From: Pseudomonas farris
Lineage (GTDB): Bacteria > Pseudomonadota > Gammaproteobacteria > Pseudomonadales > Pseudomonadaceae
Assembly: GCF_019145235.1 (NCBI RefSeq)
Contig: NZ_JAHSTV010000004.1
Location: forward strand, 248,001 to 312,000
Direction: 5' to 3'
Length of the DNA stretch: 64,000 bases
In this document: piece by piece, positions 2,799 through 52,135 of the stretch
Numbering within the stretch: position 1 is the stretch's first letter
Layout: each line of letters begins with the position of its first letter
Program-made: the position numbers and the translations under genes
Notes under the pieces: model-generated
Told to the model about the DNA's origin: nothing
Database searches by the model: none
Seen by the model: the letters and a program-made list of their open reading frames with translations, nothing else

Positions 2799-2829
2799 TC
2801 CGCTAAGAAGAGTAAACGCGCGAGACAGG

Positions 2830-2866
2830 ACGGCTTGGCTCCCACAAGGGGTCAGGCCGTTTTTTT
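2830..2866 (+). terminator. intrinsic terminator of the first adhesin gene
   Basis: An imperfect hairpin (ACGGC at 2830-2834 pairing with GCCGT at 2856-2860, with further CCC/GGG pairing inside) is followed by a run of seven T. It lies 31 bp after the TGA of the first adhesin. Confidence 0.75.
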
Positions 2867-2988
2867 ATTGGGCCACTGCGGTCCCTGAGCCAAGGCCAGA
2901 CGAGCCTTGCGGCATGTCCTCATTCACAAACGGAATAGGCGGCACCGTTCCTTCACGCCCTCGTGCTGTTCCCCCATCCAAGTAGTCT

Positions 2989-3102
2989 GAAACTCCCATT
3001 CCGCTTGGGAGTATCGGCCGATGCGCAATCCCCGGGGCTTATCCATAGTGACGGCCAAGGTCAACGGTCAGGCCTCGATGACCGCATGCTCAGGAGAAAA
3101 TC
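2989..3102 (+). promoter_or_regulatory. duplicated 114-bp leader upstream of adhesin 2
   Basis: This segment matches, base for base in length (114 bp), the region at 5950-6063 before the third adhesin. It has an inverted repeat ACTCCC-N9-GGGAGT at 2992-3012, then a GGTCAACGGTCAGGCC...ATGACC block with self-complementary arms, and an AGGAGA ribosome-binding site just before ATG 3103. Conservation of the hairpin arms in both copies suggests a regulatory or 5'-UTR role. I could not identify a clear sigma-70 promoter. Confidence 0.5.
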
Positions 3103-28525: not shown

Positions 28526-29656
28526 ATGAAATATGTAGACGATATTACGAAACTCTTTACACGTTTTGGCGCTAATGCGGAGAACTATCAGGAAATACAA
28601 CCGAACTATAAAGCTTTCAAAGACGACCCAGTTACACCTGTACTGGTTGAGCCAGAACCGTCGGTAGCCTTGCCTCCCCCAACACCAACACCAACGCCCC
28701 CTGTGTTTTTACTGGACGAGCCACAGCCTTCTTTATTGATTGGCGCGCCCAAATCCCCTCCCCTGACCGTGCCACCTGCCAGTTCTGCTACGGGTGATCG
28801 TCAGCGATTGAGCGACCTGTTGCGTGAACTCAATCAGGTTCGTCGAGACGGTCTGCCAGAAACGACTCGCAAGCGGACCAAAGCGAAGGTCATTGCTATC
28901 GTTTCGGCGAATGGTGGGGTGGGTAAAAGCACCGTCGCCGCTGGCCTCGCAAAAACATTTCGGCGCCCCGGTGGGCGAACCATCGCGATTGATCTGGACC
29001 CTCAGAACGCGCTGTCCAGCCACTTGGGTATCACCAGGCAGGCTCCCGGGCTGATCCAGCTCAAAGAGCAGAACGCAGACTGGGGCGCTCATCGCCTGCC
29101 AGGCTTTAGCGACAGTGAGTGCCTGCCCTTCGGCACTGGCGAGGTGAACGATCGCCGATTGCTCAAGCAATTGATGCTTGAAGATTCTGACTGGTTGAAT
29201 CAGCACCTTGCGTCAATGGACCTCAGCGAAAACGATACCGTGATCCTGGACACTCCTTCGGGTGCGACCGTCTATTCGCAACAGGCACTCGACGCCGCCG
29301 ATCTGGTGCTGGTGATAACGGTGGCCGACGCGGCTTCCTACCTGGCACTGGACACCATGACCCAGTGGCTGGAAACCACCCGACGACGCGCGCAGCGGCA
29401 CCGGTATGTGATCAACCAACGGGATGACTCGCGTTCGTTCAGCAGGGACATGGGCGTGCTGTTTCTGCGGCGGCTCGGCGCTGACCTGATCGGGACGATT
29501 CGCCTCGATCACCAGTTCAACGAGTCGCTGGCCTATGGTCGGGACCTCCTCCAGTACGCACCTGAGAGCATTGGCTACCGGGACATTCTTTCGCTGTCCG
29601 GCGCGGTCCATGCCTTGCTTTTCGCGGATACTTCCAGCCAGCAGGGCACGCCATGA
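28526..29656 (+). CDS. bcsQ: Cellulose biosynthesis ParA/MinD-like ATPase BcsQ (WssA-like)
   Basis: 376 residues. The N-terminus (DDITKLFTRFGANAENYQEI) resembles the small cellulose protein BcsP/BcsR. It is followed by a Pro-rich linker (~35-80) and a MinD-like ATPase with deviant Walker A VSANGGVGKST (~128-136), AIDLDPQNALSSHLG and VILDTPSG. BcsQ-type proteins localise and support cellulose synthase at the inner membrane. It is the first gene of the operon and overlaps bcsA by ATGA. The apparent BcsP-BcsQ fusion is noteworthy. There is no second WssA-like ATPase (WssJ) at the operon end. Confidence 0.9.
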   Translation: MKYVDDITKLFTRFGANAENYQEIQPNYKAFKDDPVTPVLVEPEPSVALPPPTPTPTPPVFLLDEPQPSLLIGAPKSPPLTVPPASSATGDRQRLSDLLRELNQVRRDGLPETTRKRTKAKVIAIVSANGGVGKSTVAAGLAKTFRRPGGRTIAIDLDPQNALSSHLGITRQAPGLIQLKEQNADWGAHRLPGFSDSECLPFGTGEVNDRRLLKQLMLEDSDWLNQHLASMDLSENDTVILDTPSGATVYSQQALDAADLVLVITVADAASYLALDTMTQWLETTRRRAQRHRYVINQRDDSRSFSRDMGVLFLRRLGADLIGTIRLDHQFNESLAYGRDLLQYAPESIGYRDILSLSGAVHALLFADTSSQQGTP

Positions 29657-31884
29657 CCGCCCAGCTGAATCAGCTACCTGCAAAGACGTGGTGGTTGCAG
29701 GGGCTACTGGATACTTTCCAGGCTCGCGCCAGTCGATGGCCCCTGCGTTGGCGCCAAGGCCTGAAGATCTCAGCCGGGCTGATCGCAGCATTATTGGTGC
29801 TGGGTATCCTCACTGCGCCGCTGAATCTGTATTCCCAGGCCGCGTTTGCCGCCGTCTGTTTTGCCGCCAGCCTGATCATCCGCAAGCAAGCCGGGCGTCT
29901 GGCGATCTTGACCCTGATCACCCTCTCGCTGGTCGCTTCGTTGCGTTACATGTACTGGCGCCTCTCCGACACCCTGAATTTCGACAACTGGCAGGATGCC
30001 GTATTTGGCTACGGGCTGGTGCTGGCCGAGCTGTATGCCTTGCTCGTCCTGGTGTTCGGCTATGTACAGACCGCCTGGCCGTTGCACCGCAAACCGCAGT
30101 TTCTGCAACAGCCGCCCGCAGAATGGCCGACGGTAGACGTCTTCATTCCGACCTATAACGAATCATTGGGTATCGTCAAACTGGTGGTGCTCGCTGCTCA
30201 GGCCATTGACTGGCCCGAGGGCAAACTGCGGGTGCACATGCTCGATGACGGACGCCGGGAGGAATTCAAGGTTTTCTGTCAGCAGATTGGTGTCAACTAC
30301 ATCACCCGCGACAACAATCAACATGCCAAGGCCGGCAACCTCAACGAGGCACTCAAAGTTACCGATGGCGAGTTCATTGCCATATTCGACGCCGACCACG
30401 TGCCCACCCGCTCCTTCCTGCAGATCACCATGGGCTGGTTTTTAAAGGACCCGAACCTGGCGTTGCTGCAAACGCCGCACTTTTTCTATTCACCCGATCC
30501 GTTCGAAAAAAACCTCGATACCTTTCGCTCGGTACCCAATGAAGGTGAGCTGTTCTACGGCCTGGTGCAGGACGGCAACGACTTGTGGAACGCGGCTTTC
30601 TTCTGTGGCTCGTGCGCGGTCATCCGACGGACTCATTTGCTGGAAGTCGGCGGCATCGCCACCGAAACCGTGACGGAAGATGCGCACACGGCACTCAAGC
30701 TCAATCGCCGTGGTTTCAATACCGCTTACCTCGCCGTTCCACAAGCGGCGGGACTGGCCACCGAAAGCCTTTCCCGACACATCAGCCAGCGCACACGCTG
30801 GGCGCGGGGCATGGCGCAGATTTTTCGGACCGACAATCCGTTGTTTGGCAAAGGACTGAACCTGGGGCAGCGCATCTGCTACCTCAACGCCATGATGCAC
30901 TTTTTCTACAGCCTGCCCCGCCTGGTGTTCTTGACCGCACCCTTGGCTTACCTGTTTTTCGACGCGCAGATTTTCCATGCCTCGGCGTTGATGGTCACGG
31001 TCTATGTACTGCCGCATATTTTCCATTCCAGCCTGACCAACTCCAGCATCCAGGGGCGCTTCCGCCATTCCTTCTGGAACGAAGTGTATGAGTCGGTATT
31101 GGCCTGGTACATCATGCGACCGGTGCTATTGGCCCTGATCAGCCCTTCGCTGGGCAGATTCAACGTGACCGACAAGGGCGGCACCATCGAAGAGGACTAT
31201 TTCAACTGGAAGCTCGCGCGGCCTTATATCGTCCTGCTGACCTTGAACATGGTCGGTCTGGCGATCGGCGTGGTGAAACTGATCGGGAGTGATTCTGCCG
31301 AGGCCACTACCCTGCTGATCAACCTGGCCTGGACCGTGTACAACATCGTCATCGTCAGCACCGCTGTGGCGGTGGCCACTGAGTCCTCTCAGGTGCGCAA
31401 CGAACCCAGGGTGCCCGCGGATCTGCCCGTGCGCGTCTATCGCGAAGACGGCACCTGGTTCGATTGCATTACCCGGGACTTCTCACAAAACGGCGTGGGT
31501 CTGGCACTGCCACCGCAGGTTCTGCTCAACGTCAATGAGAAGCTGCGGCTGTGCATTCTGCGCACGCCTCCCTCAAGCCTCTTTCCCGCAAAAACGGTCT
31601 TCAGCAACGACAACGTGGCGGGCGTGCAATTCGAGGCTTTGACCCTGCGCCAGCAAAGTGAGCTGGTGCGACTGACCTTTTCACGGGCCGACACCTGGGC
31701 CAACACGTGGGGTAACGGCCGCCTCGACGCGCCAATGTCGGCGTTGCGCGAGGTCAGCAGCATTGGCTTTCGCGCCATCCTGCGCTTGTTCGTTGCAACC
31801 CTAAAGGACAGCCAGGCGCTGCTGCGCAAACGCCCGGACACTCCATCACCCATCGACTCCACCGCGGACACGCAACGATCTTGA
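29653..31884 (+). CDS. bcsA: Cellulose synthase catalytic subunit BcsA (WssB)
   Basis: 743-residue inner-membrane glycosyltransferase. N-terminal helices precede a GT2 domain with DDG (~197), DAD (~246-248), TED (~341) and QRTRW (379-383), the full D,D,D,QxxRW set. Further helices follow, then a PilZ domain with RNEPR (RxxxR, ~582-586) and DFSQNGVGL (DxSxxG). Both c-di-GMP-binding motifs are intact, so activity should need c-di-GMP. It polymerises UDP-glucose into beta-1,4-glucan and extrudes it. The start overlaps bcsQ (ATGA) and the end overlaps bcsB (TTGA). Confidence 0.97.
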   Translation: MTAQLNQLPAKTWWLQGLLDTFQARASRWPLRWRQGLKISAGLIAALLVLGILTAPLNLYSQAAFAAVCFAASLIIRKQAGRLAILTLITLSLVASLRYMYWRLSDTLNFDNWQDAVFGYGLVLAELYALLVLVFGYVQTAWPLHRKPQFLQQPPAEWPTVDVFIPTYNESLGIVKLVVLAAQAIDWPEGKLRVHMLDDGRREEFKVFCQQIGVNYITRDNNQHAKAGNLNEALKVTDGEFIAIFDADHVPTRSFLQITMGWFLKDPNLALLQTPHFFYSPDPFEKNLDTFRSVPNEGELFYGLVQDGNDLWNAAFFCGSCAVIRRTHLLEVGGIATETVTEDAHTALKLNRRGFNTAYLAVPQAAGLATESLSRHISQRTRWARGMAQIFRTDNPLFGKGLNLGQRICYLNAMMHFFYSLPRLVFLTAPLAYLFFDAQIFHASALMVTVYVLPHIFHSSLTNSSIQGRFRHSFWNEVYESVLAWYIMRPVLLALISPSLGRFNVTDKGGTIEEDYFNWKLARPYIVLLTLNMVGLAIGVVKLIGSDSAEATTLLINLAWTVYNIVIVSTAVAVATESSQVRNEPRVPADLPVRVYREDGTWFDCITRDFSQNGVGLALPPQVLLNVNEKLRLCILRTPPSSLFPAKTVFSNDNVAGVQFEALTLRQQSELVRLTFSRADTWANTWGNGRLDAPMSALREVSSIGFRAILRLFVATLKDSQALLRKRPDTPSPIDSTADTQRS

Positions 31885-34184
31885 AGCCTTCCACTCGCCG
31901 GACCTTTCTTCCTCGTCGCTCACTCATGCTGATCACCTGCTCGCTAGTGAGCTGGAGCGGCTGGGCATTGAGTGCTGCCGCCCAAATCAGCGCCACAGAG
32001 CCGGCAATGATGCCGGTCGCAGCGTTGCCCGGGGCCGATGCCCCGAACAACAGCTATACCCGCACCCTCAAGGAGCTGGGCAAAAGCTATTCGATGACCC
32101 TTAAAGGCGTGGAGGCTACCGACAGTGTGAACTTCGATGTGCGCGCCGATGAAGTCGTCACGGCTGCGCAGGTCACGCTGCAGTACAGCTACTCACCGGC
32201 GCTGCTGGCCGACCTTTCGCAGATCAATGTGCTGGTCAACGATCAAGTGGCCGCCAGCCTGCCCCTCCCGAAGGAAGAGGCCGGTAAATTGCAGACCCGG
32301 ACCGTGCAGATTCCGCCGCAGACCATCACCGAATTCAACCGGCTCAGCCTGCAGTTCATCGGTCACTACACGATGCAATGTGAAGACCCTTTGCACTCCA
32401 GCCTGTGGGCCCGGATCGGCAACGAGAGTCAACTGAGCCTCCAGGTGTCCTCGATTAAACAGCCCAACGACCTGTCCGCTCTGCCGCTGCCCTTGTTCGA
32501 TCGTCGAGATGCCTCGCCCCTGAAGCTGCCCTTCGTGTTCGCCGGGCGCCCGGGCGGCCCTGAGCTTGAGGCCGCCGGTATCCTGTCGTCCTGGTTTGGC
32601 GCGCTGGCCAGCTACCGCGGCGCAACCTTCCCCGCCAGCCTCACCAGCCTGCCGGCCAAAGGCAACGCCGTGGTGTTTGTCAGCGGCAGCGAATCAACGG
32701 CCTTGAGTGGCTTACCGGTCAAAGAGGCCACGGGGCCGACATTGACACTCGTGAGCAACCCGAATGATGCTCAGGGCAAACTGTTGATCGTCTCCGGGCG
32801 CGATGGCGCCGATCTCAAGGTCGCCGCGACAGCGCTGGCTCTCGGTGGCTCGGCCTTCTCCGGGCAGAGCGTAGTGATAGACCGGATCGACTCGCTCAAG
32901 CCACGCCGACCGTACGACGCGCCTAACTGGCTGCCCTCCGATCGCCCGGTTCGCCTGGGTGAACTGGCGAAGCCCGCAGAACTCAATGTGTCGGGTTATA
33001 ACCCGGGGCAAATGACGGTTGCGCTGCGCTTGCCACCCGACCTGTTCAACTGGCGTGAGCCCGGTGCGCAACTTGACCTGAAATACCGCTATACGCCGCA
33101 ACCGGTCTCCACCAATTCCTCGTTGCTGGTCAACTTCAACGACACCTTCATCAAGTCGATCGATCTGCCTTCGATCGAGAAACTCGGCAGCAGCGACAGC
33201 CTGCTGGCGATGCTCAAAACCGACGACAGCCTGGCCCGCACGTCGCGCATGCTGTTGCCGCTCAATTCCGTAGCGCTGCAATCGCGCCTGCAATTTCGCT
33301 TTATGTATGACTACATCAAACAGGGCGAATGCCGCGACATCATCATCGACAACATGCGCGGTGTGATCGACCCGGACTCGACCCTGGACCTCAGCCAATA
33401 CGAACATTTCATGGCCATGCCCAACCTCGGGGTGTTCAAGGACAGTGGCTTCCCGTTCACCCGCATGGCCGACCTTTCTGAAACATCGGTGATCCTGCCC
33501 GACGAGCCAGGCCCGGCCGATCTGAGCGCCTACCTGACCCTGCTGGGCCGCTTCGGCGACTCCACCGGTTATCCGGCCACCGGCGTGAAGGCAGTCCACG
33601 CCGACCAGGTAGCCGAGCAAAGCGACCGGGATTTGCTGGTGCTCGCCTCGGGCAACAATCAGCCGCTGCTGGAGCAATGGCGAAACCTTCTGCCTGCCAA
33701 GGGCGAAGATGCTGCGCAGTACTTTGAACTGTCTGACCTGCCATTGCGCCTGCGCAACTGGATCAGCCCGGATACGAAAACCAATCTGCGTGAAGCGCGC
33801 AGCAGCTTCAGGTTTACCGCTGACGACGGCAGTGCTTATCTGACTGGATTCGAATCGCCGCTCAAGAGTGGGCGCAGTGTGGTGTTTATCGCCAGCGCAA
33901 GGCCCGACGGCTTGGCCGACGTAACCAACGCCCTGCTCAGCAGCGAGGAAAATGCCCGCCAGCTGCAAGGCAGTCTGGTGGTGGTCAGGGGCAAGCATGT
34001 CGAGTCGCTGGTCGCCGAGCAGGATTACTACGTCGGGAGCTTGGGCCCATTGCGCTATCTGCAGTGGTACCTCTCGCAAAACGTAATGGCGCTCATGCTG
34101 TTCACTCTCCTCGGGATCCTGCTGCTTTCTTCGATGGCCTACCTGGCCCTGCGCTTACGGGCCAAACGTCGTCTTGGTCAATGA
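31881..34184 (+). CDS. bcsB: Cellulose synthase regulatory subunit BcsB (WssC)
   Basis: 767 residues. A Sec signal (about 16-36, SLVSWSGWALSAAAQ) is followed by a periplasmic region with alternating carbohydrate-binding and ferredoxin-like domains (e.g. GHYTMQCEDPLHSSLWARIG) and a C-terminal membrane anchor (~735-757, MALMLFTLLGILLLSSMAYL). It pairs with BcsA and guides the glucan through the periplasm. The start is TTG 31881, overlapping the bcsA stop; ATG 31926, just before the signal core, is an alternative. Confidence 0.95.
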   Translation: MKPSTRRTFLPRRSLMLITCSLVSWSGWALSAAAQISATEPAMMPVAALPGADAPNNSYTRTLKELGKSYSMTLKGVEATDSVNFDVRADEVVTAAQVTLQYSYSPALLADLSQINVLVNDQVAASLPLPKEEAGKLQTRTVQIPPQTITEFNRLSLQFIGHYTMQCEDPLHSSLWARIGNESQLSLQVSSIKQPNDLSALPLPLFDRRDASPLKLPFVFAGRPGGPELEAAGILSSWFGALASYRGATFPASLTSLPAKGNAVVFVSGSESTALSGLPVKEATGPTLTLVSNPNDAQGKLLIVSGRDGADLKVAATALALGGSAFSGQSVVIDRIDSLKPRRPYDAPNWLPSDRPVRLGELAKPAELNVSGYNPGQMTVALRLPPDLFNWREPGAQLDLKYRYTPQPVSTNSSLLVNFNDTFIKSIDLPSIEKLGSSDSLLAMLKTDDSLARTSRMLLPLNSVALQSRLQFRFMYDYIKQGECRDIIIDNMRGVIDPDSTLDLSQYEHFMAMPNLGVFKDSGFPFTRMADLSETSVILPDEPGPADLSAYLTLLGRFGDSTGYPATGVKAVHADQVAEQSDRDLLVLASGNNQPLLEQWRNLLPAKGEDAAQYFELSDLPLRLRNWISPDTKTNLREARSSFRFTADDGSAYLTGFESPLKSGRSVVFIASARPDGLADVTNALLSSEENARQLQGSLVVVRGKHVESLVAEQDYYVGSLGPLRYLQWYLSQNVMALMLFTLLGILLLSSMAYLALRLRAKRRLGQ

Positions 34185-34191
34185 GCCGCGC

Positions 34192-35433
34192 ATGCCTGTG
34201 TCGTCCATGAGCAGCCGAGGTGTTTCACTTCGCCGGTGCCTGCGCGGTAACACGCGCAGGTTGAGCGCTGTGCTTGCACTGGCTCTGCTGGCGCCTGCGA
34301 TAGTGGCCGCAACCCCCTGTGAGCTGCCAGCCTGGCCACTGTGGCAAACCTATGCAACGCGCTTCGTCCAGGCCGACGGCCGGGTTCTGGAATCGAGCCT
34401 GGAGAACAATCACAGCACCTCTGAAGGGCAGTCCTACGGCATGCTCTTCGCACTGATCGGCAACGATCAGCCACGCTTTGACAAACTCTGGCGCTGGACC
34501 TCAGCCAACCTCGCAGGCTCCGCCACCGCCACACGCCTGCCGGGCTGGTTATGGGGGCAAGGCACGGATGGTCAGTGGCGCCTGCAAGACGCCAATTCGG
34601 CCGCCGACGCCGACCTGTGGATCGCCTTCGCCTTGCTCGAAGCCGCACGCCTGTGGCATCGGCCGGACTATCACCAGGATGCCCTGCACCTGATGGCGAC
34701 GATTGAAGCGCAATTGGTCGTCAAGCTGCCCGGGCTGGGCCCGATGGTGTTGCCTGGACCACAGGGCTTCGTCCAGCCGGACGCTCTCTGGCGCCTGAAC
34801 CCCAGCTACCTGCCACTGCCACTGTTACGACGGCTGGCAAAGGAAGCACCCTCGGGGCCCTGGCAAGCGATTGCCAACAACACCGCGACGATGATTGCCC
34901 AATCAAGCCGCCATGGTTTCGTCGCTGACTGGGTCGGTTATCGAGGCACTTCCGCGCAATCGGGCGCCTTCGTAAGCGACCCGATCCACGGCGACACGGG
35001 CAGCTACGATGCCATTCGCGTGTACCTCTGGCTGGGCATGAGTGATACCTCCGAACCGCTGGCAGCGCTCCTGCTCAAACGGCTGGACGGCATGGCCCGC
35101 AGCACTCTCGCGACGGGTTCCCCCCCGGAAACAGTCCAGGTTCTCCACGGCAGTGTTCAGGGTCAGAGCCCGTTCGGATTCTGGGCCGCACTGATTCCCT
35201 ACCTTGAGGCCAAGGGCCAACCCGGGCTGGCCGATCAGCAACGACGCCGCGTGGAACTCGCCTTGCACGAGGCACTGGTCAGGCCTGATGCCGACGCCGG
35301 GCCGCCGCGTTACTACAACTTCATGCTCAGCCTGTTCGCCCTCGGATGGGCAGATAAACATTACCGATTCCGGGAAGACGGAACGCTGAAACTCTCCTGG
35401 GAGACCGCATGCACGCGCACCACCGCACGCTAG
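34192..35433 (+). CDS. bcsZ: Periplasmic endo-beta-1,4-glucanase BcsZ (WssD), GH8
   Basis: 413 residues from ATG 34192; an upstream in-frame TTG 34174 and ATG 34207 are alternatives. A signal peptide (SAVLALALLAPAIVAA) precedes a GH8 catalytic domain with the general-acid Glu in STSEGQSYGM (~78) and the SAADADLW motif (~133-140). It trims or releases mis-folded glucan during secretion. It starts 8 bp after the bcsB stop and overlaps bcsC by 25 bp. Confidence 0.94.
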   Translation: MPVSSMSSRGVSLRRCLRGNTRRLSAVLALALLAPAIVAATPCELPAWPLWQTYATRFVQADGRVLESSLENNHSTSEGQSYGMLFALIGNDQPRFDKLWRWTSANLAGSATATRLPGWLWGQGTDGQWRLQDANSAADADLWIAFALLEAARLWHRPDYHQDALHLMATIEAQLVVKLPGLGPMVLPGPQGFVQPDALWRLNPSYLPLPLLRRLAKEAPSGPWQAIANNTATMIAQSSRHGFVADWVGYRGTSAQSGAFVSDPIHGDTGSYDAIRVYLWLGMSDTSEPLAALLLKRLDGMARSTLATGSPPETVQVLHGSVQGQSPFGFWAALIPYLEAKGQPGLADQQRRRVELALHEALVRPDADAGPPRYYNFMLSLFALGWADKHYRFREDGTLKLSWETACTRTTAR

Positions 35434-38400
35434 CCATCGCCGTCATGAGCACATGGACGGCCGCTGCTGCCCACGCTCAAAGTCCGACGCCACAGACATT
35501 ACTCGTCGAGCAAGGGCAATACTGGCAGCAGCACAACAACCCACAACGCGCTGCGGAAGTCTGGCTGAAAGTCCTGCTGCTGGACCCGGCCCAGGTTGAC
35601 GCACTATATGGCCTGGGCTTGATCGGCGTGCAACAGGGCAAGCCACAACAGGCTCAGCAATACCTCGCCCGCTTGCAGGCCATCCAGCCACCGCCTCGGC
35701 AGGCACTGCAATTGGCGCAGGACATCAGCGTGGACCAACCGCAGAACCAGCAGCGTCTGGAAGAGGCTCGGCGCCTCGTCGATGCCGGTGAACGTGACAA
35801 GGCGACTGCAGTGTTTCGCGCGCTGTTCGATGGCCGCCCACCTCAAGGTACGATCGGCCGCGAGTATTACAACAACCTTGCCTTTAATCCGGCTGACTGG
35901 GCTGAAGCACGAAGCGGCTTTCAGCGCCTGCAACGCGAGATGCCCAACGACTCGATCGTCGCACTGTTTTACGCCAAGCATCTGGTCCGCCGTGAAGACA
36001 GCCGGGCCGAGGGCATCCGCGCCCTGGCCGCGCTGACCCAACGTACCGACATTGCCGGTGATGCCGACGAAAGCTGGCGCCTGGCGCTGACCTGGATCGG
36101 TCCGCCCAATCCAGCACAAGTGCCGTTGTTCGAGGCGTACCTCAAGACGCATCCGGATGACGCGCAAATCCGGGCGCAGATGAACAAGGGCAAGCAACAG
36201 GTGGCAACGACGGCCAGCAAGGAATGGCAACCGCCCGCCGAAGTCGCGCACGGCCTGAAGGCGCTCAAAGAGGGCGATCAGGCCACCGCCGAACAGGCTT
36301 TTCAAGCGCGCTTGAAAACCCGGCCCGAGGATGCTGATGCGCTGGGCGGCCTTGGGGTTATTCGCCAGCAGCAACACCGACTGGCCGAAGCGGAAAAGCT
36401 CTTGAGTCAGGCCACGCGACAAAACGACGGCAGCCGCTGGCAAGTTGCGCTGAGCGAAGTGCGCTACTGGTCAGCGTTGCAGCAAGCCCGCGACGCCCAG
36501 GCCAAAGGCCAGACAGCCCAGGCACAGGTCTTGGTCAACCAAGCGCTGCGGCTCAATCCAAACGGGGTAGATGCTCGCCTCGCCCTGGCAGATATTCAGG
36601 CCAGCGCGGGCCAGTTCGATGACGCTCAGCGCAACTATCGGCAGATTTTGAACCAGCGCCGCGACGACCCTCAAGCACAGGAAGGGCTGGTCAATGTGTT
36701 GCTCAAGAGCGGCAAGAACGATGAAGCCTTGCAACTGATTAACAGCCTGCCCGCCACCGGACAGGCAAAGATCGGCCAGTCCGCACGCCTGCAAGCCTTG
36801 CGCGCGACGCAACTGGCCGCCCTCGCCGAACAACGCAACGACCTGCCCGCTGCGCGCAACGCCTTGCAAGACGCACTGCGCGTTGAGCCGGACAACATCT
36901 GGACTCGTTTCGCCCTGGCCCGCCTGAACCTGGCGATGGGCGAACCGCAAAAGGCTCGGGACCTGATCAACGCCATGCTCCAGGCCCGCCCCGACAATGC
37001 CGATGCGCTTTACGTCAGCGCCTTGCTGTCGGTCCAGATGGGTGAGTGGAAAGCCGCCCAGACAACGTTGGGACGCTTGCGCCCCGACCAGCGCACCCCG
37101 GACATGGACGCGCTGGCCGCTGATGTCAGCCTCAACCTGCAACTCAGCCAGGCGATCGAGTTGGGCAAGCGCGGACAGCGCCAGGAAGCCCTGACCTTGC
37201 TCGATCGTATTCAGCCGATGGCCAACAACAGTCCAGATCGCACGGCGAGCCTGGCCTCGGCGTATGTCGACATCGGCGAGCCAACCCGTGCGCTGGCCCT
37301 CATGCGCGGCCAGTTGCAAAACACCACGGCGCCCTCGGCGGACTTCATCCTGCAATACGCCGCTGTCCTGCTTAAAACCGGAGAAGACGTACAGGTCAAC
37401 GAGATTCTGCGCGACCTTCAGAACAGGCCGTTGAACGCGCCGGCTCGCAAGCGTTTCGACGACCTGCTCTATCTCTATCGCATCCGCCAGGCTGACCAGC
37501 TGCGTGAACGAGGCAATCTGGCCAGCGCTTATGACACGCTAGCGCCCGCCCTGGCGCAACGTCCCGGTGACAGCGCTGCCGTCGCGGCGCTGGCGCGGAT
37601 GTACTCGGCCAATGGCGACACGGCAAAAGCCCTCGAACTCTACAAACCGCTGTTACAACGTCAGCCAAACGACCCGCAACTGCTGTTGGGTGCCGCCGAC
37701 GCGGCGGTGTTGGCACATGACACTGCCTTTGCCGAACAGGCACTGCAACAGCTGCTCAAGACTGAATCCGGCAACCCTCAAACGCTGACAGAGGCCGCCC
37801 GCCTCTACCAGAACATGGGCAAGACCGGCACGGCGACCGATCTGCTGCGCAAAGCGGTGGCCATTGAACAGAGTGAGAAACGCAGAAGCCAGAGCGGCCA
37901 ACTGGCCGGTTCGACGGTGGCGCCCAACCCTTTTGCCGGGGTGTCGGGTCCACGTAGCGAGGTCAGTCGTGACACCTTGCTGGCAGCGATCCCGCCACCG
38001 GTTCAAGAGATGCCAGGCCGCATGACCTCTCACCCCCCTTTTGGCATCGACGCACTGCCAAGGCCGCAGCAGGCGAGCAATGCATACGAGTCGCAGCTGC
38101 CGCGCGCAGCACTGGTGAGCGAGGACATCAGCCCCGCGCAACTGGCACTGAATAAGATCCTTCAGGAGCGCAGTGCCTACGTCACCCAGGGCGTGAGCAT
38201 TCGCAGCAACAACAGTGAGTCGGGGCTGAGCAAACTGACTGATATTGAGACACCGCTGGAAATCAATATCCCGCTGGATGAAAGCCGCGTCGCCCTGCGC
38301 GTGACGCCGGTCTCGCTGAACGCTGGCAGTGTCAGCGGCGAGGCGCTGTCGCGTTTCGGTAACGGTGCGCAAAGTGGCAACGTCGGCTCGCAAAAAGCCG

Positions 38401-39272
38401 AGGGTGTTGGTCTTTCCGTCGCCATTCAACGGCCCGCGGATGGGCTCAAAGCTGATCTCGGCACCACCCCGCTCGGCTTCAAATACAGCACCGCCACCGG
38501 CGGCATCAGCATTGATCGCCCGGTGAGCGACACCTCTAATGTCCGTTACGGTGTGAGCGTTTCGCGGCGTCCGGTGACCGACAGCGTCACCTCGTTTGCC
38601 GGCACCACGGACAAACGCAGCGGGCAGTCCTGGGGCGGCGTGACCGCCAACGGCGGGCGTGGCCAATTGAGCTTTGACGACAACGAAGTCGGCGTCTATG
38701 GCTACGCCTCCTGGCACCAGCTATTGGGCAACCATGTCGAGTCCAATAGCCGCGGTGAGCTGGGCAGCGGTGTCTACTGGTACCTGCAAAATGCAACGGA
38801 CAGCAAGCTGACCGTCGGCCTGAGCATGACCGGCATCAGCTACGCCAACAATCAGGACTATTTCACTTATGGCCACGGCGGCTATTTCAGCCCGCAGACG
38901 TTCTTCGCCCTGGGCGTGCCAGTGACCTGGGCACAACGCACCGGACGCTTGACGTATCAAGTCAAGGGCTCGGTCGGCGTGCAGCATTTCGAGCAGGACA
39001 GCGCCGACTATTTCCCCAACGACAAAGCCATGCAAGCGGCCTCGGGCCTTCGCTACGAAGGGCAAAACAAAACCGGGATCGGCTATAGCATCGCTGCGGC
39101 GGCTGAATACAAGGTCGCTTCGAACTTCCTGCTGGGCGCCAATCTAGGCCTGGACAACGCCCATGACTACCAACAACTCAGCGGTGCCCTGTCTTTGCGC
39201 TACCAGTTCGAAGACATCAGCGGCCCCATGAGCCTGCCGGTCAGCCCGTACACCTCGCCTTATTCCAACTGA
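35409..39272 (+). CDS. bcsC: Cellulose export protein BcsC (WssE): TPR scaffold plus outer-membrane barrel
   Basis: 1287 residues. A signal peptide (ending AAAAHAQ) is followed by a ~20-fold array of TPR-like helices to ~830 (e.g. ADALGGLGVIRQQQHRLAEA) and a linker. A C-terminal BCSC_C beta-barrel (~930-1287) ends in a conserved ALSLRYQFED strand. It takes cellulose across the periplasm and outer membrane. ATG 35409 has CTGGGAG upstream and lies within the end of bcsZ. Confidence 0.96.
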   Translation: MHAHHRTLAIAVMSTWTAAAAHAQSPTPQTLLVEQGQYWQQHNNPQRAAEVWLKVLLLDPAQVDALYGLGLIGVQQGKPQQAQQYLARLQAIQPPPRQALQLAQDISVDQPQNQQRLEEARRLVDAGERDKATAVFRALFDGRPPQGTIGREYYNNLAFNPADWAEARSGFQRLQREMPNDSIVALFYAKHLVRREDSRAEGIRALAALTQRTDIAGDADESWRLALTWIGPPNPAQVPLFEAYLKTHPDDAQIRAQMNKGKQQVATTASKEWQPPAEVAHGLKALKEGDQATAEQAFQARLKTRPEDADALGGLGVIRQQQHRLAEAEKLLSQATRQNDGSRWQVALSEVRYWSALQQARDAQAKGQTAQAQVLVNQALRLNPNGVDARLALADIQASAGQFDDAQRNYRQILNQRRDDPQAQEGLVNVLLKSGKNDEALQLINSLPATGQAKIGQSARLQALRATQLAALAEQRNDLPAARNALQDALRVEPDNIWTRFALARLNLAMGEPQKARDLINAMLQARPDNADALYVSALLSVQMGEWKAAQTTLGRLRPDQRTPDMDALAADVSLNLQLSQAIELGKRGQRQEALTLLDRIQPMANNSPDRTASLASAYVDIGEPTRALALMRGQLQNTTAPSADFILQYAAVLLKTGEDVQVNEILRDLQNRPLNAPARKRFDDLLYLYRIRQADQLRERGNLASAYDTLAPALAQRPGDSAAVAALARMYSANGDTAKALELYKPLLQRQPNDPQLLLGAADAAVLAHDTAFAEQALQQLLKTESGNPQTLTEAARLYQNMGKTGTATDLLRKAVAIEQSEKRRSQSGQLAGSTVAPNPFAGVSGPRSEVSRDTLLAAIPPPVQEMPGRMTSHPPFGIDALPRPQQASNAYESQLPRAALVSEDISPAQLALNKILQERSAYVTQGVSIRSNNSESGLSKLTDIETPLEINIPLDESRVALRVTPVSLNAGSVSGEALSRFGNGAQSGNVGSQKAEGVGLSVAIQRPADGLKADLGTTPLGFKYSTATGGISIDRPVSDTSNVRYGVSVSRRPVTDSVTSFAGTTDKRSGQSWGGVTANGGRGQLSFDDNEVGVYGYASWHQLLGNHVESNSRGELGSGVYWYLQNATDSKLTVGLSMTGISYANNQDYFTYGHGGYFSPQTFFALGVPVTWAQRTGRLTYQVKGSVGVQHFEQDSADYFPNDKAMQAASGLRYEGQNKTGIGYSIAAAAEYKVASNFLLGANLGLDNAHDYQQLSGALSLRYQFEDISGPMSLPVSPYTSPYSN

Positions 39273-47577: not shown

Positions 47578-50577
47578 TCAATCTGTTCTGGCATGCCCGG
47601 TACGCCTTACCGAGTCAGGGCTCGCAATGCGGCCCGGCTGAGGCAACCGGGGCGTACGCAGTAACACACTGATTTCATCGCAGCTGACCGCGCTGCTGAA
47701 CAAATGACCCTGAATTTCATCGCAGCCGTTTTCACGCAGGAAGGTTTGCTGCTCTTCGGTTTCGACACCTTCGGCAATGACCTTCAGGTTCAGTTTGTGC
47801 CCCAACGAAATCACTGCGGTGGCGATGGCTTTGTCGTTCTCGTTGTCGGGCAGATCGCGCACGAAAGACTGGTCGATCTTGAGTCTCGCGATCGGGAAGC
47901 TTTTCAATGCTGCGAGGCTGGAGTAGCCGGTGCCGAAGTCGTCGATCGAGAGACTGATCCCCATTGATTGCAGTTCTTTCATTTTGCTGATGGCTTGCTG
48001 AAGGTCTTGCATGATCAGACTTTCGGTCAGCTCCAGCTCAAGGTACTTCGGGTCCAGTCCGGTTTCTTGCAAGGCATGCCTCACCCGGTCGATCAGGTCC
48101 CTTTCGATGAACTGGCGCGCTGAAATATTCACCGACATGGTGATCGGCGGCCAGCCCGCATCCTGCCAGGCCTTGTTCTGTCTGCACGCGGCATGAATCA
48201 CCCAGTCGCCGATGGGCACGATCAACCCAGTCTCTTCGGCCTGCGGAATGAATTTGATTGGAGACACCATGCCGAGCTCGGGGTGCTGCCAGCGGATCAG
48301 TGCCTCTACGCCGATAATCTGACCTGACTGCAAATCCACCTGTGGCTGGTACAGCAGCAGGAACTCGTCATGGTTGAGTGCGTTTCGAAGCCCGTCTTGC
48401 ATGGCGAGCTTGCCCTGATCCTTGTTATTCATCTCGCTCGTATAGAACTGGTAACTGTTGCGACCCAGCTCCTTGGCCCGGTACATGGCGGCGTCCGCAT
48501 TGCTGAGCAACGTTTCGGTATCGCTGCCGTCGGCAGGGTAAGTGGCCAACCCCATGCTGCAGGTGACGTGGAGTGTATGTCCGCTGAGCTGAATCGGTCG
48601 CAGGATGGCTTCCTGGATTTTGTGCAGGGCTGGAGTAACGCCGTCGAGATCTGAGGGCTGGTCGAACAGGATGATCACAAACTCGTCGCCACCCAGTCGT
48701 ACGACGGTGTCGGTGCGGCGTACACATGCCAGCATGCGCTGAGCGACGGTTTTCAGCAGTTCGTCTCCAGCACTGTGCCCAAGGCTGTCATTCACCAGTT
48801 TGAATTTGTCCAGATCAAGAAACACCACCGTCACCAGCCGGCTGTAGCGCTGAGCATAAAGTATTGCCTGCTTGAGACGGTCTTCGAGCAGTGTGCGATT
48901 CGGCAGCCCGGTCAGTGCGTCATGGTCACCCATATAGCGAATGCGCTTTTCGGTCAGTTGGCGTTCTATCGCAATGCCAGCAAGAGGAGTCGCCATGTTG
49001 ATCAGTCGCGTCTCGGTCGAGCTGGGGCTGCGTACGGTGCTGGAATACAAGGCAAACGTACCCAATACTTTTCGCTCATGGGACAGAATCGGCGTCGACC
49101 AGCAGGCGCGAAATCCATAGGGCGCAGCGACTGAACGGTACTCCTCCCACAGCGGATCCAGCTCGATATCGGTGACGATGACCGGTTCTCGTCGATACAC
49201 CGCGGTGCCGCATGAACCGACGTTCGGACCGATCGCAATCCCGTCAATGAGCTGGTTATAGGCTTTCGGCAAACTGGGCGCAGCCCCGTGCAGCAGGTGT
49301 TTGCCCTCCTCATCCAGCACCAGGATGGACACCATCATCCCCTCCAGTTGGGACTCGACCAGATGAGCCAGGCTTTCGAGGACTTCGGCAAGCTCGGTGC
49401 TCCTGGCGATCAGCTCCAGGACATGACCTTGCCCGGCACGGATGACGGCCTCTTGCTCTAATCGGCTGTTTTGCACGGCGAGCCGCTCTGTGGCGATACT
49501 CAATTGGACCGTTCTTTTTTCCAGCTGAAGTCGGTCTTTGAGGAATTGATTCACCGCACGAGCCATGTTGCCGATTTCGTCCTTGCCATGCTCCGCCATC
49601 ATCACATGCGTTTTGTCAGTGTGTTCCTGACGCAATTGCCGGCTTATTTCATTCAGGCGCACGAGCACATGACGGCCCATGAAGACCCGGGTCACAAACC
49701 AGGCGAACACCAGGCTGGCGCCCAACATGATCAGCACCCATTGCTGGCTACGATTTGAGGCCTCGACCAAGCGCTGCACGGCTTCGCGATAGTCTTCGGT
49801 GTAAGCACTGGATTGCGCACGAGCCACCGCGACCAGAACCCCGGCCTCATTCTTCAGTTCCTCATTGAAGCGCTGTATGACGTTGTACTGATTGATGAGC
49901 CTCAGGCGCAGGGAGAAGAGATCGGGCGTCTGCACATCAGCGTCGGGGAACTTGCCTGCGGTGCGTGACAGGCGCTCATATCGGATCCGCAGCCGTTGCA
50001 CGGCATCACTGTCAACAGCCTGCGGCAGATCGAAAAGTAACACCGCCAGTTCCAGGCTGGCCCGGGTCTGGGTCGCGGTTAACCGGGCCGTGTGATCCTC
50101 CAGGGTTTGCTCGAAGGTGACCTCGGTTTGCAGCAGGCTTTCTCGCAGCTGCGCAACGATGTTGGCGGTATTGCGGAACAGCTGACTCGACTGATGCATG
50201 TCGAGTATCGCCACGCCACTGTTCGCGGCAGTCAGCTGCTGCACCAGTTGATCAAGGGCTTCAAGCTGTTGGACGGTCGCCGCATAGCTTGAATGCAGGG
50301 TGTCGGGCGAGCGAGTTGTCAGAAGCTGATCGGTCTGACGTTCGATCAGCAAGGTACGCTGCAGCATGTCTTGCCCATTTTGCATGCGAACCAGTCGTTC
50401 ATCCGTCAGCTGGCGAGTGGCGCTGTTTGACGTGCGCAACGCGTAGACCGCAGTGGCACCACCCGCCAGGATCAGCAGTGCCAGCGTCAGAAACGCCAGT
50501 GTGAACTGTGCGCGTAGCGATTGCGGCAATAGTCGGCGTCCGAGCCGGGAAGTAACGTCCAATATCAGGGATTCCAT
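47578..50577 (-). CDS. Membrane-bound GGDEF-EAL c-di-GMP enzyme with periplasmic sensor, HAMP and GAF
   Basis: 999 residues. A first membrane helix (~24-46) and a large periplasmic helical region lead to a second helix (~280-300), HAMP (~300-355) and GAF (~395-545). The GGDEF domain has VRLGGDEF (~627-634) with an inhibitory-site RRTD just before it. The EAL domain has EALIRW (~757), ELTES, IDDFGTGYSSL and AEGVETEEQ. Both catalytic motifs are intact, so it may make and break c-di-GMP. Its start overlaps the stop of the periplasmic binding protein gene by 13 bp, suggesting that the binding protein presents a ligand to the periplasmic domain. Its c-di-GMP could feed the PilZ domain of BcsA (inference). 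Confidence 0.94.
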   Translation of the reverse strand: MESLILDVTSRLGRRLLPQSLRAQFTLAFLTLALLILAGGATAVYALRTSNSATRQLTDERLVRMQNGQDMLQRTLLIERQTDQLLTTRSPDTLHSSYAATVQQLEALDQLVQQLTAANSGVAILDMHQSSQLFRNTANIVAQLRESLLQTEVTFEQTLEDHTARLTATQTRASLELAVLLFDLPQAVDSDAVQRLRIRYERLSRTAGKFPDADVQTPDLFSLRLRLINQYNVIQRFNEELKNEAGVLVAVARAQSSAYTEDYREAVQRLVEASNRSQQWVLIMLGASLVFAWFVTRVFMGRHVLVRLNEISRQLRQEHTDKTHVMMAEHGKDEIGNMARAVNQFLKDRLQLEKRTVQLSIATERLAVQNSRLEQEAVIRAGQGHVLELIARSTELAEVLESLAHLVESQLEGMMVSILVLDEEGKHLLHGAAPSLPKAYNQLIDGIAIGPNVGSCGTAVYRREPVIVTDIELDPLWEEYRSVAAPYGFRACWSTPILSHERKVLGTFALYSSTVRSPSSTETRLINMATPLAGIAIERQLTEKRIRYMGDHDALTGLPNRTLLEDRLKQAILYAQRYSRLVTVVFLDLDKFKLVNDSLGHSAGDELLKTVAQRMLACVRRTDTVVRLGGDEFVIILFDQPSDLDGVTPALHKIQEAILRPIQLSGHTLHVTCSMGLATYPADGSDTETLLSNADAAMYRAKELGRNSYQFYTSEMNNKDQGKLAMQDGLRNALNHDEFLLLYQPQVDLQSGQIIGVEALIRWQHPELGMVSPIKFIPQAEETGLIVPIGDWVIHAACRQNKAWQDAGWPPITMSVNISARQFIERDLIDRVRHALQETGLDPKYLELELTESLIMQDLQQAISKMKELQSMGISLSIDDFGTGYSSLAALKSFPIARLKIDQSFVRDLPDNENDKAIATAVISLGHKLNLKVIAEGVETEEQQTFLRENGCDEIQGHLFSSAVSCDEISVLLRTPRLPQPGRIASPDSVRRTGHARTD

Positions 50578-51758
50578 TGGTGGCGATAGATGTCTCGATA
50601 GCCATTGTCAGGGTCGTACTGGAATTTCTTACCGCCGTCGAAGGCGATATTGTCGGCATTGACCAAGTGAATCGGCGCTACGAAGCCGCTCACCGGCTGA
50701 CCTGCAAACAGCCGGTTCAATTCATCCATCACTTGCCAGCCATGCAGGTTAAGCGGCTCGGCCACGGTAACGGTCTGGTAGGTTTTTGCCTGTATACGCA
50801 AAAAAGCCGAAGCGCTGCCATCACCGGCAGACAACAGACTGATGCCGTCACTGGGTATTGCGGCGCTGGTCAATGAGGCAATCGAGTAGTCGAAATAGAT
50901 ATCGTTGATGGCCAGCGTGTGGGTCCAGCGCTTGCCATAGCGCTGAAGCAGCTCCTTGGTGATCGCCGGCATCTTCTCGCCACTTTCGGAGATCGCGACA
51001 TCGCGCACTTCCAGCAACGTACAGTCCCGACAGGCCCGAATGACGTTTTCCATGGCCTTGGCTTTCGCCATGGCGATGCTGTACTTGGAGTCGGTCAGGA
51101 TGACCACGCCGGCGCGGCCGTTTGACTGTGCCACTGCCGCCATGGCCGTGAGGCGAGCCACTTCGAGTGGATCGGTCGTGACGTTCATGGCCACCGGCGT
51201 GCCGTCAATCGGCCCGGGGCGTGCCCCGGCGTGCCAGCCAACCACCGGCACATCCCTGTTGGCGAAGAGGATCAGCGCCGCATTGTTCTCAAGGGCATCG
51301 GAGCCGCACAGAATGAGGCCGTCGGGTTTCGCTGCCAGGGCATCAGAAAAGGCCTTTGCGCGACCGGCCGATGATCCGGCGCCATCGAATATCTTCAGCG
51401 TCCAGCCCATCGCCTTGGCTGCCTCGCGAGCGCCCTGCGCGACACCGACAATTCCTCCGTTACGCAAATCTTCTGCGACAAGGGCGATGCTCTTGCCCCG
51501 CAGGGCTCGCGGGCCGGATTCAGGGCCGCTCCAGCGAACGGCTTCGAGGGTGGCCCTGGAAACGATTTCCTGCGCTTGAATCACCGTAACCGTGGCGTTT
51601 TCGACAGCGTATCCGGGCGTTGCCGTGAAAAGACAGAAAACCGTAATTGAAGCCATCCCGAGTAGCCAGGGCCTGAGTAACCAGGGCCTGATCAGACAGG
51701 TTCGATCACCGCATGTGATGCCGGGTCTGGAGCCGATGGCGCGATCATAGTCTGGCAT
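50565..51758 (-). CDS. Periplasmic sugar-binding-type protein paired with the GGDEF-EAL gene
   Basis: 397 residues from ATG 51758 (AAAGGGA upstream). A long polar N-terminus precedes a membrane/signal segment (MASITVFCLFTATPGYA). The rest is a type I periplasmic binding fold of the ribose-binding class (GKSIALVAEDLRNGGIVGVA, KPDGLILCGSD, GDGSASAFLRI). No ABC permease or ATPase genes adjoin it, so it is probably a sensor rather than a transport component. The 13-bp overlap with the downstream GGDEF-EAL gene supports a two-part receptor, as in LuxP/LuxQ-type arrangements. The ligand is unknown. Confidence 0.88.
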   Translation of the reverse strand: MPDYDRAIGSRPGITCGDRTCLIRPWLLRPWLLGMASITVFCLFTATPGYAVENATVTVIQAQEIVSRATLEAVRWSGPESGPRALRGKSIALVAEDLRNGGIVGVAQGAREAAKAMGWTLKIFDGAGSSAGRAKAFSDALAAKPDGLILCGSDALENNAALILFANRDVPVVGWHAGARPGPIDGTPVAMNVTTDPLEVARLTAMAAVAQSNGRAGVVILTDSKYSIAMAKAKAMENVIRACRDCTLLEVRDVAISESGEKMPAITKELLQRYGKRWTHTLAINDIYFDYSIASLTSAAIPSDGISLLSAGDGSASAFLRIQAKTYQTVTVAEPLNLHGWQVMDELNRLFAGQPVSGFVAPIHLVNADNIAFDGGKKFQYDPDNGYRDIYRHQWNP

Positions 51759-52135
51759 GGTGTCCCTTTTTGCCAAGAGTGCAGCGTTCACTATCCGAAA
51801 GGATAGTCGGTTCTGCTGTCATCAGGTCTTTTGTGGGTAAAGTGCGCGAACTTTAGTCCTGTACATTCAGGAAATGGGACAGGGTTCATGGCACAAAACA
51901 AGGGACGAAGGTCAATTGCATCGTTGACTGATGGCGCTTCATTGCGCTTCGGCAAGGCGCTATCGCCCGAAGGCGACTGCTCAAGCGTTATTAAGCAGTC
52001 GCCGAACGTTCGAGAAAAACATCGCGGGGCATCAGCGTTACAGTGATGTAGTTGTCGATGCGGCTGTGGATCTGCAACGTCGCGCCGGAGACCCGCACAG
52101 GCCGATTGATCGTGCGGGCGCTACCTGTCTACCAG
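51759..52135. other. intergenic region with a strong hairpin
   Basis: It contains a perfect 10-bp inverted repeat GGCGACTGCT / AGCAGTCGCC at 51972-52003 (12-nt loop) without a T-run, 130-165 bp after the siderophore receptor gene. It may be an mRNA 3' structure. The promoter of the binding-protein/GGDEF-EAL operon should lie near 51765-51850. No gene was seen. Confidence 0.5.

Follow-up and report, generated by a model that had tools for sequence, protein, structure and literature searches.

The window analyzed here, a stretch of 64,000 nucleotides from Pseudomonas farris (contig NZ_JAHSTV010000004.1, positions 248,001 to 312,000), carries on its minus strand a gene for a binding protein of the ribose-binding family that runs into a gene for a membrane GGDEF-EAL enzyme. 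The binding-protein open reading frame (ORF) occupies 50565-51791, encoding 408 amino acids from a GTG at 51791 or 397 from an ATG at 51758, and the enzyme ORF (47578-50577) encodes 999 amino acids. The binding-protein stop ends at 50565 and the enzyme ATG starts at 50577, so that the two genes have 13 bp in common, read in different frames. This overlap had been reported in a preliminary description made from the sequence alone, together with a lack of transport genes beside the pair. ORFs and Pfam matches confirmed the overlap, and none of four flanking genes scanned with Pfam encodes an ATP-binding cassette (ABC) ATPase or permease. The 6.49 Mb genome, assembled in 37 contigs, contains 40 GGDEF matches and one match to the window binding protein at E <= 1e-10. 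The features of the pair are as follows.

50565..51758, minus strand: binding-protein gene (ORF; Peripla_BP_4 E 1.4e-18; the nearest PDB entry by sequence is the sugar-binding protein 2ioy)
51606..51758, minus strand: probable signal peptide, spanning roughly residues 1-51 and closing with ...TATPGYA (visual inspection of the sequence)
50697..51488, minus strand: Peripla_BP_4 domain (Pfam)
50565..50577, minus strand: 13-bp stop/start overlap, kept in relatives (ORFs, sequence)
47578..50577, minus strand: membrane sensor with HAMP-GAF-GGDEF-EAL output, 999 amino acids (ORF, Pfam, motifs)
50434..50511, minus strand: transmembrane helix 1, residues 23-48 (hydropathy)
49741..50433, minus strand: predicted periplasmic helical sensor domain, residues ~49-279, TorS/HBM-like (AlphaFold2 model, VIA-align)
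49675..49740, minus strand: transmembrane helix 2, residues 280-301 (hydropathy)
49540..49680, minus strand: HAMP linker, residues 300-346 (Pfam E 0.0025, below gathering score)
48964..49398, minus strand: GAF domain, residues 394-538 (Pfam)
48457..48927, minus strand: GGDEF domain with RxxD inhibitory site (Pfam, motif search)
47695..48390, minus strand: EAL domain, tested catalytic motifs intact (Pfam, motif search)

Pfam assigned GAF_2 (1.3e-16), GGDEF (4.8e-50) and EAL (1.3e-74) domains to the enzyme, with 4HB_MCP_1 and HAMP below the cut-offs, and found no kinase domain in it. The GAF domain, which the preliminary description did not mention, lies between HAMP and GGDEF. Motif searching agreed with the earlier statement that the GGDEF (with its inhibitory site, or I-site) and EAL motifs are intact: an RxxD I-site is located five residues ahead of GGDEF, with the match starting at residue 620, and the EAL part contains EALIR (residue 758), SVNIS (815), ELTE (849), DDFGTG (879), LKID (899) and EGVE (936). 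Each tested I-site, GGDEF and EAL motif was also present in all 35 loci examined in which this sensor is fused to GGDEF-EAL (32 distinct, as L036, L043 and L059 repeat L022, L024 and L025). By its sequence the enzyme is a candidate bifunctional GGDEF-EAL protein, with I-site and catalytic motifs all intact.

The preliminary description had proposed co-occurrence across genomes as a check on the pair, and the two genes do occur together. Among 398 genomes of the genus, searched at E <= 1e-250 for the enzyme and E <= 1e-60 for the binding protein, 27 encode an enzyme orthologue, and each of the 27 enzyme genes is accompanied by a binding-protein gene in the same orientation, the ends of the two matches being no more than 60 bp apart. 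Binding-protein matches were found in 36 of these genomes at 38 places, of which 31 loci in 30 genomes are close (72% identity or more) and six further places, at 41-49% identity, represent other groups; in the family, 13 of 298 sampled genomes had a match. More distant relatives came from a GTDB contig scan and are the best 80 of 115 loci. In 77 of these 80 named loci the binding-protein gene is directly followed by one that encodes this periplasmic sensor. One of the paired loci, L039, belongs to the plant-associated laboratory strain P. fluorescens FW300-N2E3, for which public transposon fitness data exist. The 13-bp overlap is kept in 27 of the 28 named GGDEF-EAL pairs (the remaining one has a 2-bp gap) and is thus not due to chance. 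After removal of three repeated records, the 32 GGDEF-EAL loci fell into 16 gene contexts, defined by two or more flanking genes in common at over 70% identity, with some single contexts (L040, L049, L051) being short contigs. Seven flanking genes of the window, including BenE, MocR-like, TonB-receptor and GbdR genes, were considered as further partners and rejected because a search at E 1e-30 of 42 loci (L022-L063; L069 was searched also) returned no recurring orthologue and only one distant match, at 177-179 bits in L037. The two genes therefore stay together in changing surroundings, and comparison of these sequences identifies the binding protein and enzyme as a unit.

The sensor that recurs in these loci was modeled with AlphaFold2 from 46 sensor sequences over window residues 1-360, giving an all-helical model with a pLDDT (predicted local distance difference test) of 80. 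VIA-align placed TorS chains in rows 1-4 and 6, that is, 5 of the top 6 (Z 15.1-17.1, root-mean-square deviation 2.1-3.4 A over 197-202 residues), led by 3i9y (Z 17.1, 2.6 A, 197 residues) and 3i9w (16.4, 2.1 A, 200 residues), with the TorS-TorT complexes 3o1h and 3o1i at 15.2 each and TorS 3o1j at 15.1. Further rows were the designed bundle 6egc (14.5), NarQ (13.2) and PilJ (12), and apart from the chemoreceptor sensor McpZ no row other than TorS exceeded 14.5. Helical bundles at Z under ~13 may have only an arrangement in common and typical best values are 14, so the TorS rows of this model appear to exceed the helical-bundle background, but not by far. LuxQ and LytS sensors were not among the 50 structural matches listed, which is evidence neither way. 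The model thus describes a TorS-like bundle, with the qualification that helical bundles match easily. Alignment of the sensors found D109, R135 and A142 to be invariant periplasmic positions, and the conserved stretch 128-146 is a candidate contact or hinge.

The binding protein itself matches Peripla_BP_4 over profile positions 1-257 of 258, and Peripla_BP_1 is the only other Pfam match at E <= 0.01. It is probably exported, as its N-terminus looks like a signal peptide; a 19-residue Kyte-Doolittle scan with a cut-off of 1.6 found no segment in that N-terminus. The closest solved sequences are sugar-binding (2ioy, 2.8e-8; 6gq0, 4.4e-8), followed by ribose-binding proteins. The earlier label "ribose-binding-type" was accurate for the sequence family but does not extend to the pocket: of the residues that we take to be the ribose-facing contacts of ribose-binding proteins, only Asn13, Asn190 and Asp215 are kept in the alignment. 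Ribose is therefore unsupported as the ligand, which is probably a different compound. In an alignment of 48 proteins that takes in the importer-linked L028, NDIYFD, AGDGS, W143-H144, C211/C214 and a WxGPxxGP stretch ahead of the Peripla_BP_4 domain are invariant or nearly so, and the ligand may be common to the whole binding-protein group.

The sensor and binding protein are found with different outputs. Classified by phmmer, using query sequences taken from the loci themselves, partners in the 80 named loci comprise 44 kinases, mostly from Burkholderiales, 28 GGDEF-EAL proteins and one GGDEF protein, with four unclassified and three loci without a sensor gene. Two of the unclassified partners are cut by contig ends (L065, L090), one showed only HAMP and PAS by Pfam (L111), and the fourth is L077. 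Pfam agreed with the phmmer class for all 10 partners sampled, nine kinases and the PAS-GGDEF partner in L108. Two loci contain a third gene: an Oxalobacteraceae metagenome-assembled genome (MAG) encodes the binding protein, a kinase and a REC-PAS-GAF-GGDEF-EAL regulator (L064, 7860-13905), and L067 (7851-13308) encodes the binding protein, a hybrid kinase and then a REC-HD_5 regulator. Judged by domain content, outputs of the cyclic di-GMP type are reached in both loci via a phosphorelay. Ten hand-picked neighbors scanned with Pfam had no common theme apart from these two regulators, and a screen for conserved neighbors among raw ORFs of the kinase loci was dominated by antisense ORFs and gave no clue to the ligand. 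The L108 pair (802-3737), a binding protein with a sensor-PAS-GGDEF protein lacking EAL, comes from a MAG labeled Desulfoprunum (Thermodesulfobacteriota), a placement that possibly reflects transfer or a binning error.

These exchanges bear on the idea that the main input is cytoplasmic and enters at the GAF domain, with the periplasmic part only dimerizing the enzyme and the pair reflecting history. The position of GAF between HAMP and GGDEF suits such a role, as does its retention in the L064 regulator and the partner in L061. Yet none of the nine Pfam-scanned kinase partners has a GAF match although the same sensor and binding protein are kept, and among sensor-linked rows identity to the window is higher for the binding protein (56-88%) than for the sensor (37-85%). 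We consider a GAF-driven enzyme quite unlikely.

The three-gene locus also suggests where the fused enzyme came from. Over 582 amino acids the GAF-GGDEF-EAL part of the L064 regulator and the window enzyme share 72% identity, compared to 69 and 68% for the outputs of fused Caballeronia partners and 50% over the GGDEF-EAL part for the best paralogue in the enzyme's own genome. Because of this 72% identity, the enzyme probably looks like a collapsed two-component system, in which the sensor of a kinase was joined to the output of its regulator. In Caballeronia a PAS domain lies between sensor and GAF (L061 by Pfam, L062 and L063 by phmmer), and these proteins resemble a halfway form with PAS kept, the Pseudomonas form being without it. 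In a 40-row tree of output modules, 14 rows come from the 35 fused loci, one is the L064 regulator, three are Caballeronia paralogues whose N-termini differ, and 22 are other GGDEF-EAL proteins. The fused rows, the L064 regulator and the three paralogues (18 rows) form one clade with support of 100/100, in which the Pseudomonas fused rows group at 100/99. The GAF-GGDEF-EAL modules of the paralogues (L174 5253-8861, L175 6742-10035, L176 6584-9886) are 61-62% identical, and neither this sensor nor this binding protein has a match in the stretches examined around them. A 67-row tree of binding proteins, which used 12 of the 35 fused loci and left out L065 and L090, places the GGDEF-EAL rows and three orphans in one clade (96/93) and the kinase rows and lone GGDEF row on other branches, with the two importer-linked proteins outside; its base is not resolved, and it carries a program warning of long-branch attraction. 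Our reading of the order is that the kinase came first, that one or two fusions lost kinase and receiver, and that PAS was then lost in Pseudomonas; fission instead of fusion is a possible alternative direction.

We propose that the pair is a two-gene, binding-protein-dependent cyclic di-GMP receptor, and put the probability of this reading at roughly three in four. The preliminary description had suggested a two-part receptor as well; the unit revealed by comparison and the TorS-like sensor model strengthen that suggestion, whose basis is comparative rather than biochemical. The sensor model is supportive because the TorS sensor, which it resembles, docks a periplasmic binding protein. In the proposed mechanism, the exported binding protein would capture a small polar ligand, probably carbohydrate-like, and would dock on the helical sensor bundle that the co-translated enzyme exposes in the periplasm, as TorT does on TorS. 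Docking, or its ligand-induced change, would be relayed across both membrane helices and the HAMP linker to GAF-GGDEF-EAL, where it would shift the balance between synthesis and degradation of the biofilm messenger cyclic di-GMP. The enzyme would have arisen from a system of binding protein, histidine kinase and REC-PAS-GAF-GGDEF-EAL regulator when the kinase sensor was joined to the regulator output. We infer all of these steps, from export, physical contact, ligand and signaling to the direction and number of fusions and the sign of the response. On the analogy with NspS-MbaA, docking of the ligand-loaded binding protein might favor synthesis, at little better than even odds; hydrolysis could equally be favored.

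Several observations weigh against this reading. TorT is much farther from the binding protein (E 0.47) than ribose-type proteins are, and a structure model of the binding protein made without an alignment reached a pLDDT of only 33. A sensor sequence profile had no match in the PDB at E 0.1, and Foldseek gave no hit at E <= 1e-3 for the model, ranking 3i9y third (7.6e-3, probability 1.00) behind two ciliary chains. The fused rows do not form a single group in the output-module tree (2 changes), which would fit two fusions, or one fusion and a later split. Those from Caballeronia join the L064 regulator and the paralogues with weak support (88/51); a single change was obtained in 2% of 200 bootstrap trees, and the starred branches do not exclude it. 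The remaining points are shared with a rival explanation, in which a ligand binds directly to the sensor bundle and the binding protein, merely co-expressed, serves an importer encoded elsewhere. The sensor model is also matched by McpZ (Z 15.2, tying some TorS rows) and McpS (14.3), the latter crystallized with malate and with succinate. ABC-importer genes adjoin two relatives of 48-49% identity, which partly corresponds to one of the findings that the preliminary description had listed as contrary to a receptor. At L028 (8247-9446, 49% identity) the Pfam-identified neighbors are an ATPase, a permease and sugar-acid-type enzymes (amidohydrolase, SMP-30 lactonase, mandelate-racemase-type enolase and aldehyde dehydrogenase) as well as OprD; at L181 (6625-7779, 48%) an ATPase, recognized by phmmer with the L028 ATPase, accompanies a polysaccharide deacetylase and a sigma-54 activator. 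The L028 enzymes hint at a sugar acid or lactone as the ligand class, and we name no ligand because the L181 neighbors differ from these.

Enzyme-less binding-protein genes point the same way. Frequent separation of the two genes, the other contrary finding listed earlier, is seen in part: 4 of the 31 close binding-protein loci lack the enzyme (the second copy in G331, at C10:71134-72324; G475; G522; and G628, where the copy is in two pieces), and 3 of the 80 named loci lack a sensor gene (L055, L057, L069). However, direct ligand binding by the sensor leaves unexplained both the pair order seen in 77 of 80 relatives with swapped outputs and the persistence of the pair in 16 contexts, and we regard it as unlikely. 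The copies without sensor or GGDEF (L055, L057, L069, the G331 copy, G475, G522, G628) are ~79-84% identical to the window protein. An OPT-family transporter is near both sensor-less loci scanned (L055 and L069), with a YCII-type gene also at L055, and P. kilonensis has a paired form (L050) and the sensor-less form (L069) on one contig. Five binding proteins at 40-44% identity (L029-L033) have no gene with this sensor within the 17-18 kb examined. Three of them (L031-L033) have a nearby gene with a methyl-accepting chemotaxis protein (MCP) motif, identified by Pfam as a dCache MCP in L031, and use of the same binding-protein family in chemotaxis is possible.

The preliminary description also nominated BcsA as the output, and a version compatible with the receptor model is that the pair signals chiefly to BcsA, with cyclic di-GMP driving cellulose synthesis via the PilZ domain. 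BcsA with a PilZ domain is indeed within the window, where Pfam places BcsQ, BcsA, BcsB, GH8 and BcsC in that order at 28526-39272. Closeness in a single genome is the sole link between the pair and BcsA. The bcs genes end ~8 kb away, the genome has 40 GGDEF matches, and the seven other near genes do not recur as orthologues beside the pair in 42 loci, a search in which bcs genes were not queried. The nomination was not borne out, and we rate BcsA as the chief target as highly improbable.

A broader interpretation is that the WxGPxxGP binding protein and TorS-like sensor form a widespread unnamed receptor module with one conserved ligand and varied outputs (hybrid and plain kinases, REC-HD or REC-GGDEF-EAL relays, and fused GGDEF-EAL), of which the Pseudomonas and Caballeronia enzymes would be short-circuited two-component systems that lost kinase and receiver once or twice. 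We hold this tentatively, at somewhat less than an even chance. If it is true, a phosphorelay became a direct cyclic di-GMP receptor, and the series from L064 (three genes) through L061 (fused, with PAS) to the window (fused, no PAS) offers a natural experiment in that transition. To our knowledge, the signals of most cyclic di-GMP enzymes are unknown, and the pair offers a defined, purifiable candidate ligand-catching protein for one of them. With kinases behind this front end in 44 of 80 named relatives, a ligand found once would help to annotate many receptors.

Compared to known systems, the pair resembles TorT-TorS, the trimethylamine N-oxide-binding protein and hybrid histidine kinase represented by PDB entries 3o1h, 3o1i, 3o1j, 3i9w and 3i9y, in combining a binding protein with a membrane protein that has a long helical sensor, and the model matches TorS best (Z 15-17). 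It differs in its GAF-GGDEF-EAL output, where TorS is a hybrid histidine kinase, and in a binding protein nearer to the ribose type (2ioy, 2.8e-8) than to TorT (0.47). Long helical bundles are also found in the chemoreceptor sensors McpS, McpZ and PilJ (Z 14.3, 15.2 and 12), which have a chemoreceptor output; the McpS sensor is of the HBM type and was crystallized with its own ligand. PMC6321045 cites structural evidence that TorT binds the sensor of TorS; in that paper XylFII-LytS and LuxP-LuxQ are described as binding proteins that act on kinase sensors both apo and ligand-bound. Set beside the window pair by that description, these two systems differ in their kinase output.

The principle of a two-part cyclic di-GMP receptor is already known from NspS-MbaA and PruR-DcpA. 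NspS is a PotD-like protein and belongs to another binding-protein class, unlike the window partner, which is Peripla_BP_4/Peripla_BP_1 by Pfam rather than a polyamine-binding protein of the PotD type. According to PMC8967002, NspS of Vibrio cholerae is a periplasmic binding protein that binds polyamines and controls the membrane GGDEF-EAL enzyme MbaA, the same combination of parts as in the window, and docking of norspermidine-loaded NspS is thought to favor synthesis. PruR-DcpA and PruR-DTB, as presented in PMC13259868, each consist of two genes in an operon, one for a ligand-binding protein of the periplasm and one for a membrane regulator with a DcpA or sensor-kinase output, which is the same modular pattern with a similar swap between outputs. 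There, PruR has a SUOX-type pterin-binding fold and DcpA-type sensors carry WX7E. No WX7E match was found in window enzyme residues 41-300 and the partner is of another fold, Peripla_BP_4 rather than SUOX-type, which sets the pair apart from PruR-DcpA.

Among titles and abstract openings, we recognized no published description of this pair. A 2022 review lists only SBP_bac_3 of 27 PBP-clan Pfam families as studied in cyclic di-GMP networks (PMC8846402); the term NspS does not occur in its main text, nor do "periplasmic" or "GAF" in the main text of PMC5792552. What is new here is that a proposed two-part cyclic di-GMP receptor joins a binding protein of the ribose type to a TorS-like sensor.

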